This document shows, piece after piece, positions 50,444 to 63,111 of a stretch of DNA of 64,000 nucleotides (positions within the stretch are counted from its first letter, which is position 1; each line of letters opens with the position of its first letter). Position numbers and translations under genes: made by a program. Below the pieces are notes generated by a model. It was not told the DNA's origin. It worked only from the letters and a program-made list of their open reading frames with translations, and did not search any database. This DNA is from Burkholderiales bacterium (GTDB taxonomy: Bacteria; Pseudomonadota; Gammaproteobacteria; Burkholderiales; Burkholderiaceae_C), in assembly GCA_013044035.1 (NCBI GenBank), contig JABEVE010000053.1, positions 19,166 through 83,165 of the forward strand. Reading direction: 5' to 3'.

Positions 50444-50461
50444 CCGTCATATGATTGTCAC
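50444..50461 (+). promoter_or_regulatory. Pho box upstream of pstS
   Basis: CCGTCAT-ATGA-TTGTCAC: two 7-bp half-sites with 4-bp spacer; TAGGAT -10-like hexamer 10 bp downstream. Confidence 0.75.
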
Positions 50462-50527
50462 AATGCATGCCTAGGATGGTCATCGTGGCAAAAAACCACG
50501 CCGAATCTATCCCTAGGAGAGTGACTC

Positions 50528-55010: not shown

Positions 55011-55751
55011 ATGACCATGGCCAGCAATATTCTCGTCGTCGAAGATGAACCAGCCATTGCCGAACTGCTGGCGGTCAACCTGCGCCATGCAGGGCACTGC
55101 CCGATTCTGGCCGGCAGCGCCGAAGAGGCCCTGCGCCTGATTCGAGACATCCTGCCCGACGTCATGCTCATCGACTGGATGCTGCCCGGCATGTCCGGCC
55201 TGGCCCTGGCGCGGGAGTTGCGCCAGGGTGCCCGCACCCGCAGCATCCCACTCATCCTGCTGACCGCGCGCAGCGAAGAGGCTGACACCATTGCCGGGCT
55301 CGACGCGGGCGCTGACGACTACATCACGAAACCGTTCTCTCCCAAAGAGTTGCTGGCCCGCATCCGCTCGGTGCTGCGCCGGCGCTCGCCCCAGTTGACC
55401 GACGAGCCGGTGCGTGCTGGCGGCCTGGCGATGGACCCGTCCACACGCCGCGTCACCTTCTCTGAAGGCGCGGGTGAGATGGACTTGCGCCTGGGGCCGA
55501 CCGAGTTCAAGTTACTGCACTTCCTGATGACCCACCCGGAGCGCGTGCATAGCCGAGGCTCCCTGCTCGACAAGGTTTGGGGTGACCATGTCTTCATCGA
55601 GGAGCGTACGGTGGACGTGCATATCAAACGCCTGCGTGAAGCCCTGGCTCCCGTGCATTGCGCAGAGTTGGTGGAGACCGTGCGCGGCGCCGGCTATCGC
55701 TTCACGTTGCGGCAAAATGCGCCTGCGCTGCAACTCGCCCCAGGGGCCTGA
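55011..55751 (+). CDS. phoB: Phosphate regulon response regulator PhoB
   Basis: Receiver VVEDEPAIAELLAVNL/MLIDWMLPGMSG plus winged-helix output domain; follows phoU. Confidence 0.95.
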   Translation: MTMASNILVVEDEPAIAELLAVNLRHAGHCPILAGSAEEALRLIRDILPDVMLIDWMLPGMSGLALARELRQGARTRSIPLILLTARSEEADTIAGLDAGADDYITKPFSPKELLARIRSVLRRRSPQLTDEPVRAGGLAMDPSTRRVTFSEGAGEMDLRLGPTEFKLLHFLMTHPERVHSRGSLLDKVWGDHVFIEERTVDVHIKRLREALAPVHCAELVETVRGAGYRFTLRQNAPALQLAPGA

Positions 55752-55892
55752 AGCTGCTGAGTCGGCCGGTATCTGAGACGCCGCTGCGCGTTTGCAGTGC
55801 CACACCGCAGGATGCATCCGACCAGCCCCGGGCGCAGTCCGCCACTTTCCTCGCATCCCCCGTTGCTTGTTCCGCCATCCCGTCCAATCATC

Positions 55893-57266
55893 ATGCGCGC
55901 CGTCCTCTTCCGTTTGATCGGTGTGATCGCCCTGATGCTGGTGAGCGCAGGTCTCGTCGGCTGGTGGTTCGGCCCCTTGCCCGCGGCGTTCGTAGCCTGC
56001 GCCGTGGCGCTGGTGGTGATCGGCGCCGATACCGCCGCGCAGCTTCGTGTCCTCGCCTGGTTGAAATGGCCGCGGCATGACAACATTCCCACGGCACGTG
56101 GCGTCTGGGCCGAAATGCTCTATCGCGCCGCACGTCAGTTGCGCCTGTGGGAGACACGCGTGGCGCACGAGGAAGACAAACTCAAGCGCTTCATCGAGGC
56201 GCTGCAGGCTTCGCCCAACGGCGTGATCCTGATGGACGCCAGCGACCAGATCGACTGGTGCAACGATACCGCGGCAGCACATTTCGGCCTGGATCCCAAG
56301 CGTGACCTGCGCCAGCATGCCGTGCACCTGATCCGCAACCCCGAGTTCTTTGCCTACATGGGCTCCAAGCGCTTCGACGAGCCGTTGCTGATGCGTCGCA
56401 ACGGCAGCTATGGTCCCTTGCTGCTGAGTGTGCAGATCATTCCCTACGGCGAGGGCGAAAAGTTGCTGCTGTCACGCGACGTCACCCAGGTCGAGCGCAC
56501 CGAGGCCATGCGGCGCGACTTCGTCGCCAACGTCTCGCACGAGATCAAGACGCCGCTCACCGTCATTGCCGGTTTTGTCGAATCTCTGCGTACCCTGGAA
56601 TTTTCAACCGCGGAGCGCAACCACGTTCTCGGGCTGATGCAAGAGCAGTCCGATCGCATGCGCCATCTGGTCGACGATCTGCTGACCCTGGCTCACTTGG
56701 AAGGCGACCCGCATCAACCGGCCGAGGAGCGCATGGACATGCGACAGATGGTCGAGCGGCTTGCGGCCGACGCGCGCGCGCTGTCGGCCGAGCGCCATCG
56801 CATCGAGGCCAGTGCCGACGCAGGCGGTTTGTGCGGCGCACGCACCGAGCTCACCAGCGCGTTCGGCAATTTGGTGAGCAACGCCGTGCGCTACACCCCC
56901 CCGGGTGGCGAGGTGCGCATCACTTGGCGCGTGCTGCATCCGGATGACGGCGACCCCTGTGCCGAGTTCAGCGTCAGCGACACGGGCATCGGCATTGCGC
57001 CGGAGCATATTCCTCGCTTGACCGAGCGCTTCTACCGCGTGGACCGTGGGCGCTCGCGTGAATCCGGCGGCACCGGGCTGGGGCTGGCTATCGTCAAGCA
57101 TGCGTTGTTGCGGCATCAGTCCGAACTGCGCATCAGCAGCCAACCCGGGCTGGGCAGCACATTCAGCGTGCGTTTCCCACTGGCGCGTCTGGACTTGGCC
57201 AAGCCGGTTCAGGCCACAGGGGCGTCGGACGCGCCTCAGGCCGACCGCGAATCGATCAGCGCCTGA
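55893..57266 (+). CDS. phoR: Phosphate regulon sensor kinase PhoR
   Basis: Start MRAVLFRLIGVIALML; PAS region; RRDFVANVSHEIKTPLTVIAGFVESL; ATPase SGGTGLGLAIVKHALLRH. Confidence 0.94.
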   Translation: MRAVLFRLIGVIALMLVSAGLVGWWFGPLPAAFVACAVALVVIGADTAAQLRVLAWLKWPRHDNIPTARGVWAEMLYRAARQLRLWETRVAHEEDKLKRFIEALQASPNGVILMDASDQIDWCNDTAAAHFGLDPKRDLRQHAVHLIRNPEFFAYMGSKRFDEPLLMRRNGSYGPLLLSVQIIPYGEGEKLLLSRDVTQVERTEAMRRDFVANVSHEIKTPLTVIAGFVESLRTLEFSTAERNHVLGLMQEQSDRMRHLVDDLLTLAHLEGDPHQPAEERMDMRQMVERLAADARALSAERHRIEASADAGGLCGARTELTSAFGNLVSNAVRYTPPGGEVRITWRVLHPDDGDPCAEFSVSDTGIGIAPEHIPRLTERFYRVDRGRSRESGGTGLGLAIVKHALLRHQSELRISSQPGLGSTFSVRFPLARLDLAKPVQATGASDAPQADRESISA

Positions 57267-59311: not shown

Positions 59312-59383
59312 GGATGGGGGCTGTGCACAAGCTGGTAGGGCGGAACGAAAGCCATCAACGAGCGCTTAGGATGTCACTGTTTT

Positions 59384-59401
59384 GTGAAATCACCATGACA
59401 G
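59384..59401 (-). promoter_or_regulatory. Candidate Pho box in the ppk/ppx divergent intergenic region
   Basis: Minus strand CTGTCAT-GGTG-ATTTCAC (second half-site degenerate); an additional CTGTCAT on + at 59412-59418. Confidence 0.45.
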
Positions 59402-59441
59402 TTTCAAACGCCTGTCATTGTCCGGCATTCCAATCGCGCTC

Positions 59442-60971: not shown

Positions 60972-61838
60972 CTACACCGCCGCCAGACCCGCTCGGGTGT
61001 CGGGGGCATGCAGGAAATGGCGCGCGTAGCGCGGGTTCACATCGGCCAGGCGCATCAGCAAGGGGAAGTCTGCGGTGTTGAAGTCCGGGTCCCAGGCAGG
61101 CGCCCCGCAGATCCTGGCCCCCACCCGCAGGTAGCCTTTGAGCAGCGGCGGGGCTTCGGCTGGCACATTTTGCCGCAGGCTGGCCACCGGCAGAGGCAGG
61201 CGCGGTTGCATGTGATCCTCCACCGCGGCGAGATGGGTCTGGCGCAGCCGTGCCCAGAGGCTGGCGGCGTAATGCCCGCCGTCGCGCATGGACACGCTGG
61301 CGCAGCCGATCATCGCGTCCAGCCCGTTGCTTCGCATGTACTGCGCCAGGCCAGCCCACAACGCCATGATGACGGCGCCGCTGCGGTAGCCCTGGCGCAC
61401 GCAGGAGCGTCCCAGTTCCAGCAGGCGTGGGCGCAAGTGCACCAGACGCGTGATGTCAAACTCGGTCTCTGAATAGAGTCCACCCACGCGCTGGGCCTGG
61501 TGTGGCGGCAGCACGCGGTAAGTCCCCACCAACAAGCTGTCGGCGTTGCGCACCAGCAGGTGATCGCAATACGGGTCGAAGATGTCGATGTCGTAACCGG
61601 GTGAAGGTGTGGCGATGCGCGCCCCAAGCTCATCCGCGAACACTTTCCAGCGCAGCCGCTGGGCTTCGAGGACCTCGTGTGGCTGGCGCGCCCAGGCCAT
61701 GGTCAGTCCTGTGCAGTCGGCAGCATATTCTCCACCTGCGACAGCTCGGCGCCCGGCATGCGCCTGGTTTTTCCCCTGGGGTGATTCCGACTCGTGAAAG
61801 ATCCGTAGGTCCGGCTCGACTTCTCGGTGATCGTGCAT
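60972..61838 (-). CDS. OlsB-like GNAT acyltransferase (L-ornithine N-alpha-acyltransferase family)
   Basis: LEAQRLRWKVFADELGARI...DIDIFDPYCDHLLVRNADSLLVGTYRVLPPHQA...LELGRSCVRQGYRSGAVIMALWAGLAQYM; AGGAG SD before ATG. Confidence 0.8.
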   Translation of the reverse strand: MHDHREVEPDLRIFHESESPQGKNQAHAGRRAVAGGEYAADCTGLTMAWARQPHEVLEAQRLRWKVFADELGARIATPSPGYDIDIFDPYCDHLLVRNADSLLVGTYRVLPPHQAQRVGGLYSETEFDITRLVHLRPRLLELGRSCVRQGYRSGAVIMALWAGLAQYMRSNGLDAMIGCASVSMRDGGHYAASLWARLRQTHLAAVEDHMQPRLPLPVASLRQNVPAEAPPLLKGYLRVGARICGAPAWDPDFNTADFPLLMRLADVNPRYARHFLHAPDTRAGLAAV

Positions 61839-61877
61839 CGATGACTCCTGTTCCTATCCATAGGATACGAACAGGAT

Positions 61878-61917
61878 GTGACGGTTCGATGATGGTCACA
61901 TGACGATGTGATGACAC
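61878..61917 (-). promoter_or_regulatory. Tandem Pho boxes (four half-sites) upstream of the olsB-like gene
   Basis: Minus strand GTGTCAT-CACA-TCGTCAT-GTGA-CCATCAT-CGAA-CCGTCAC: four heptamers at exact 11-bp period; TATCCT -10-like hexamer 10 bp downstream. Confidence 0.72.
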
Positions 61918-62007: not shown

Positions 62008-63111
62008 TCAGGCGGTGGGTATGCGGATGTTCAGCGGTCGTGCCGAAGGCTCAGGGCTGACTTCTGCGGAAATGGGTGCGAGCTTGGCCGGGAAAACAAG
62101 GGCGCGCGCCAGGTTTGGCGCGGTTGTTTGCAGATTTTCCATCGCATGCATCACGGCACCGGCGCTCTGCAGATAACTGCGCTTGAGCAGGCGCTTGAAT
62201 GGCCGACCTTGCGGGGTGTTGTTGTCGCAGACATCGTGCACGAAGCCAGGCCAGTTCGAGCGGTCCAAGATGGCGGTGCAAACCGAAATGGAAATGGAAA
62301 GTGGCCGCGCTGCGTGCCACCAGCCCATGGGGATGAAAATCATCTGCCCCGGCTTGAGCACGGTGTGGTGCGGCGAGGCTTGTGCGACGCGCGGAAAGCG
62401 CTGCAGGTCAGGCTTGTGCGGCTGGTCGATTTGCGACAGGTTGGGCTGCACCGGCGAGGGGTAGAGATAGGGTGTGTCTTCGGGCGGAAACAGGTAATAC
62501 TCTTTTTCTCCGTAGATTTCCGTGATCTGCGCATGGGCGTGCTCCAGGTCGTAGTGCATCACTGGAAATTTGCTGCCGGGGCCGCCCATCAGCAGCTTGA
62601 GAAAACCGTCGGGGCGCCTCCAGCGTTCAGGCATGAGTGGGCTGATGTGGCGCAGCGGAAAGCCGTAGACATTCTGCGGGATGAGGTCGGGCAGCAATTC
62701 GGGCAGATGCTCGTGGAAAAAAAGTCGAAACAAATAAGGGCCGGGGCTCTGCTCACTGGAGGCCAGCACGGCATCGGCAAAATCAGCGAAGGTCATGCGC
62801 TTGGTGTAGGACACCTGGACTGGATGCTGCCCGAAGTTCTGCTTGAAATAGTGCGGTGTCCATTTCCGCAGCGCGGGCCAGGCGGTCACGGCGTTGTCGA
62901 TGACCACCGGCCTGTTTGCGCGCAGGTAATGCTGGAGAAAATCGGCATAGGGCAAATCGCTGGCACGCACCACGTCCAGGGTCGTCGGCACGGCAGGGCT
63001 GGCGCCCGATCCAAGGGCGGACGGTTCACCCGTCACTGGATTTGTGCGCTGCATGGGGAGGGAAGACATGGCTGATCTTTCGTCGTCGAGGAGTCTGCTC
63101 GGCATGCTCAA
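62008..63111 (-). CDS. Cupin-like (JmjC/Cupin_8) domain protein
   Basis: 367 aa; RPVVIDNAVTAWPALRKW; metal-site-like MHYDLEHAHAQI and IPMGWWHAARPLSISISV. Confidence 0.85.
   Translation of the reverse strand: MSMPSRLLDDERSAMSSLPMQRTNPVTGEPSALGSGASPAVPTTLDVVRASDLPYADFLQHYLRANRPVVIDNAVTAWPALRKWTPHYFKQNFGQHPVQVSYTKRMTFADFADAVLASSEQSPGPYLFRLFFHEHLPELLPDLIPQNVYGFPLRHISPLMPERWRRPDGFLKLLMGGPGSKFPVMHYDLEHAHAQITEIYGEKEYYLFPPEDTPYLYPSPVQPNLSQIDQPHKPDLQRFPRVAQASPHHTVLKPGQMIFIPMGWWHAARPLSISISVCTAILDRSNWPGFVHDVCDNNTPQGRPFKRLLKRSYLQSAGAVMHAMENLQTTAPNLARALVFPAKLAPISAEVSPEPSARPLNIRIPTA

Follow-up and report, generated by a model that had tools for sequence, protein, structure and literature searches.

In a Thiomonas-type bacterium of the order Burkholderiales, an olsB-like gene is preceded by a run of direct repeats, which raises the question of whether the synthesis of a phosphate-free membrane lipid is under the control of PhoB in this organism. 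In classical PhoB-activated promoters, the Pho box replaces the −35 element. Within the whole stretch of DNA analysed (64 kb, referred to as the window), four PhoB half-sites with an exact 11-bp period were read from the sequence on the minus strand, 61917-61878, ahead of the olsB-like gene. The elements of this region are as follows.

61911..61917, minus strand: Pho half-site 1, GTGTCAT, then CACA (sequence and array scan)
61900..61906, minus strand: Pho half-site 2, TCGTCAT, then GTGA (sequence and array scan)
61889..61895, minus strand: Pho half-site 3, CCATCAT, then CGAA (sequence and array scan)
61878..61884, minus strand: Pho half-site 4, CCGTCAC, occupying the −35 position, a placement conserved over the order
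61862..61867, minus strand: −10-like hexamer TATCCT, exactly 10 bp past half-site 4
61845..61849, minus strand: Shine-Dalgarno-like AGGAG (sequence)
60972..61838, minus strand: OlsB-like N-acyltransferase, 288 aa, a single gene convergent with ppx (PF13444 and NCBIfam OlsB models)

The original prediction had placed four minus-strand heptamers at 61911, 61900, 61889 and 61878 in exact 11-bp register, with TATCCT 10 bp downstream of the array; the former proved correct to the base and the latter was found at 61867-61862. The spacer between half-site 4 and this hexamer is ATCCTGTTCG (10 bp, minus strand), and another 23 bp separate TATCCT from the ATG of the olsB-like gene at 61838. Read in the direction of the gene, the array thus ends 10 bp before the −10 element, as in a PhoB promoter, and it consists of four direct 11-bp repeats, each a CTGTCAT-like core of 7 bp plus 4 bp, in agreement with the classical Pho repeats of the E. 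coli type (PMC2648988). The classical Pho box of 22 bp, in contrast, holds two such repeats, so that the olsB array corresponds to two Pho boxes in tandem, and its spacer is more GC-rich.

Between the sixA-like gene and olsB lies a gene for a cupin_8/JmjC-type protein (62008-63111, minus strand). The possibility that the array serves this upstream gene was rejected, as the gene shares the strand of the array and terminates at 62008, ahead of it, and no Pho box lies upstream of the gene itself. Within the genus this gene was detected, besides the present genome, only in G013 and G023, within the stretches of about 1.5 kb inspected on each side; a lipid-modifying role of its product is only a guess.

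The strength of the array was determined with a unit matrix that follows the established consensus of E. coli and was not trained on the window. At 26.7 bits, the olsB array gave the top four-unit score of the window, above the maxima of all 100 windows simulated with a third-order Markov model (mean 12.5, sd 2.8, highest 21.9 bits). Scored as two units only, the site reaches 15.0 bits, just under the mean maximum of the simulations (15.2), and therefore the signal is carried by the four-unit geometry. The two-unit pattern CTGTCATN4CTGTCAT with 3 mismatches was not selective (10 matches, 4.6 expected). The olsB site is the sole zero-mismatch match to GTCAYN6GTCAYN7TCAYN6GTCAY in the 3.7-Mb assembly, a count that gauges rarity only, because the pattern was derived from the site itself.

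The window also carries pstS, phoU, phoB, phoR, ppk and ppx, and its next-best separate Pho sites are in the pstS promoter and in the gap between ppk and ppx, both of which are expected Pho targets.

55011..55751, plus strand: phoB, presumed activator (TIGR02154, 323 bits, over the cut-off)
55797..57266, plus strand: phoR, presumed sensor kinase (TIGR02966, 405.6 bits, over the cut-off; the true start is possibly later)
50444-50461, plus strand: pstS Pho box CCGTCATATGATTGTCAC (CCGTCAT ATGA TTGTCAC), followed after 10 bp by the −10 element TAGGAT (50472-50477)
59401-59384, minus strand: Pho-like pair of the ppk-ppx gap, CTGTCATGGTGATTTCAC
59401-59418, plus strand: Pho-like pair of the ppk-ppx gap, GTTTCAAACGCCTGTCAT

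Both PhoB and PhoR are thus encoded in the genome. The pstS promoter has two good units, and its 11-bp period and 10-bp spacing to the −10 element match those of the olsB array, bearing out the equal spacing that had been claimed for the two promoters. In the divergent ppk/ppx gap (59312-59441), the Pho-like pairs point in both directions.

The same layout was then sought in related genomes. For the genus, 28 genomes were searched, including the source genome; olsB was present in 26 of the 27 others, and every olsB-bearing genome of the genus has an upstream four-unit array of about 15 bits or more. Over the order Burkholderiales, olsB was detected in 218 of 300 genomes. Among 160 olsB upstream regions, 118 scored at least 15 bits and 42 below, compared with 1 in the reversed and 2 in the reverse-complement controls (mean array score 18.3, against 0.4 and 0.6), these counts being dependent since the lineages compared are related. 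Columns inside the Pho units are biased by the scan that selected the arrays, but the −10 element and the flanks lie outside this selection, so that the occurrence of TAnnnT at an offset of 10 bp downstream in 90 of 104 distinct arrays is independent support; the hexamer was found at none of the offsets 0-9 and 11-14, and once or twice at a few larger ones. The positions of a possible fifth Pho unit are not conserved on either flank. Tandem PhoB-site geometry, as originally proposed, is therefore supported by its score and by order-wide conservation, and the predicted PhoB sites are further backed by motif, orientation, −10 spacing and the presence of phoB in the window.

Cupriavidus, Paraburkholderia and Pandoraea share the gene order sixA-like, olsB, ppx, ppk. 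Ahead of olsB, no more than two good Pho units were observed at the Polynucleobacter or uncultured betaproteobacterial loci L041-L043, L065, L072, L086, L088 and L113 and at L107 (Alcaligenaceae MAG), and four units at the Polynucleobacter loci L091, L100 and L103.

The OlsB-like protein contains a complete PF13444 acyltransferase domain (residues 62-162, profile positions 1-102 of 102, E 4e-33), and its best NCBIfam models are those of OlsB, NF052555 (E 4e-45) and NF052554 (E 3e-43). The scores, 154.5 and 148.7 bits, are under the curated cut-offs of 320 and 350. Both models appear clade-specific, their names ending in BRUA and RHOCB, and the missed cut-offs therefore lower the case for membership of those two equivalogs, not of the wider OlsB family. 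The protein is 51-65% identical to named Burkholderiales relatives, many with the same neighbourhood, reaching 62-65% with Paraburkholderia and Pandoraea orthologues in matching surroundings; all 41 Burkholderia genomes gave one match each at 60-63% identity, and the protein may be an orthologue of the characterised Bcal1281. A protein search of the genome returned no OlsB homologue other than this one. Outside the window, at G000:C99:38073-38318, PF13444 has one further match, a weak one of 31 bits. A search of the genome for an OlsC-type hydroxylase (PF05118) gave no match, as did the control genomes, so that this result is uninformative on absence.

The genome encodes four acyltransferases of PF01553, one of which is matched best by OlsA models.

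G000:C96, about 9.9-10.9 kb: olsA candidate (best family NF052553)

Against NF052553 the candidate scored 134 bits (E 4e-39), under the cut-off of 300. Over 162 aa it shares 39% identity with a Methylomagnum acyltransferase whose gene immediately follows an olsB-like one. It lies on the same contig as olsB, about 70 kb away, next to pyrC-like and aroC-like genes (names read from translations). A candidate for the OlsA partner of an OlsB is thus present in the genome. No Pho array was detected in the 7.5 kb around it, the best four-unit score being 2.3. Together, PF13444, the best-scoring though sub-cut-off OlsB models, the identity and neighbourhood of the relatives and the olsA candidate support the predicted OlsB-like identity of the downstream gene.

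Three other explanations of the locus were weighed. That the repeats arose by chance in non-coding DNA is in keeping with the score of the half-site pair, which is no better than the best chance expectation in 64 kb; the four-unit score exceeds every simulated window, and the maintenance of the geometry in diverged relatives refutes this reading, to which we give almost no weight. OmpR-family regulators other than PhoB also use direct repeats, and CCATCAT and GTGTCAT deviate from CTGTCAT, two points in favour of binding by another member of this family, with control not by phosphate. Against this, the other top sites of the window are those of pstS and ppk-ppx, and period and −10 spacing are the same as in the pstS promoter here, making control by a different regulator very unlikely.

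The remaining explanation accepts the PhoB-controlled promoter but has the enzyme make a different or additional aminolipid, such as a lysine or glutamine lipid, and not ornithine lipid alone. Of the whole proposal, the head group of the lipid is the part held with least confidence; specificity for it is unreadable from sequence. OlsB of A. baumannii makes lysine lipids besides ornithine lipids (PMC11828411), and the present protein is under the curated OlsB cut-offs. Against this stand its identity of up to 62-65% to the Paraburkholderia and Pandoraea orthologues with matching surroundings and the production of ornithine lipids by P. xenovorans and B. cenocepacia (PMC7814305); a different or additional product is thus improbable, if less so than another regulator.

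The preferred reading, a PhoB-activated olsB promoter, has close parallels in published systems. Of the 43 Burkholderia sensu lato genomes studied in PMC7814305, 21 had a Pho box predicted upstream of olsB when an alphaproteobacterial matrix was used, and all 43 did when the matrix was a refined one. The paper also reports that P. xenovorans exchanges phosphatidylethanolamine for ornithine lipids when phosphate is low (data not displayed in that paper), and that constitutive synthesis is confined to Burkholderia sensu stricto. It names Bcal1281 as the OlsB of B. cenocepacia; since BCAL1270-1276 form a phosphate transport cluster (PMC3190405), the characterised OlsB is encoded close to the pst cluster, as in the window. 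That system resembles the present one in a related gene, an upstream Pho box and a conserved context. It differs in that Thiomonas and most of the order lie outside the study, the matrix spans 18 bp (two units), and the text consulted describes neither a four-unit array nor a fixed −10 spacing. The olsB gene of A. baumannii likewise carries a Pho box and depends on phoR, and olsA of that organism is, as here, unlinked and without a Pho box (PMC11828411). A. baumannii differs in being a gammaproteobacterium, in making lysine lipids too and in having been described with a single Pho box. A literature search for Thiomonas together with ornithine lipid found no paper. The link between PhoB and olsB is therefore not special to the present strain, and the finding is not new in kind, having been published for Burkholderia sensu lato (PMC7814305) and, via PhoR, for A. 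baumannii (PMC11828411). Beyond these studies, the present analysis contributes the genus, the arrangement in four units, the conservation of this arrangement over the order and the weaker arrays of Burkholderia sensu stricto.

In Burkholderia sensu stricto (loci L138 and L196-L224), the olsB arrays retain the geometry, and TACATT follows them after 10 bp, but they score lower than those of Paraburkholderia (among L064-L114). The genus, with 41 sampled genomes, was assigned to Burkholderia sensu stricto by sequence matches of part of the third contig of G301 to B. cenocepacia and B. multivorans records at 85-87%. The mean array score was 13.1 bits for 30 genomes of the former (13 distinct 60-base sequences) and 22.6 for 22 of the latter, the difference coming mainly from unit 2 (GGACAC) and unit 3; a rank test gave 8e-10, treating species as independent though they are related. 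This weakening may be a single ancestral change. Two Caballeronia-group loci, L093 and L106, score 15.0 and 17.2, the latter from Burkholderia peredens, which we take to belong in Caballeronia. As Caballeronia is reported to be non-constitutive and yet has these scores, a simple rule of array strength is weakened. It is conceivable, though on balance doubtful, that olsB was ancestrally preceded by the four-unit array throughout the order, as its original promoter, and that the weakening of this array in Burkholderia sensu stricto was part of a change from phosphate-induced to constitutive synthesis of ornithine lipids.

From the directly established sites, their geometry and conservation, the gene neighbourhood and the presence of phoB, phoR, olsB and the olsA candidate, we infer PhoB binding, induction, the enzyme substrate and lipid replacement, and hence a probable coupling of PhoB to membrane remodelling in the present strain. 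Under phosphate scarcity, PhoR would phosphorylate PhoB, two dimers of which would occupy the four direct repeats, with half-site 4 at the −35 position, and RNA polymerase would initiate from the TATCCT −10 element. OlsB would then N-acylate ornithine with a 3-hydroxy fatty acid, the second acyl chain would be added by the unlinked OlsA, whose gene is without its own Pho array, and the ornithine lipid would take the place of phospholipid, sparing phosphate. Taken jointly, a PhoB-activated, sigma-70-type olsB promoter, inducing an ornithine lipid that substitutes for phospholipid and saves phosphate, is the very probable reading, and the original interpretation as a whole is well supported as a prediction.

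The contrast between the strong arrays of Paraburkholderia, which lacks ornithine lipids in rich medium, and the weak ones of Burkholderia sensu stricto, in which these lipids are constitutive, offers a concrete, testable lead on the loss of phosphate control. With its single, fixed arrangement, the promoter described here adds phosphate-free membrane lipid synthesis to what the Pho regulon is predicted to cover in a Thiomonas-type bacterium and in most of the Burkholderiales.
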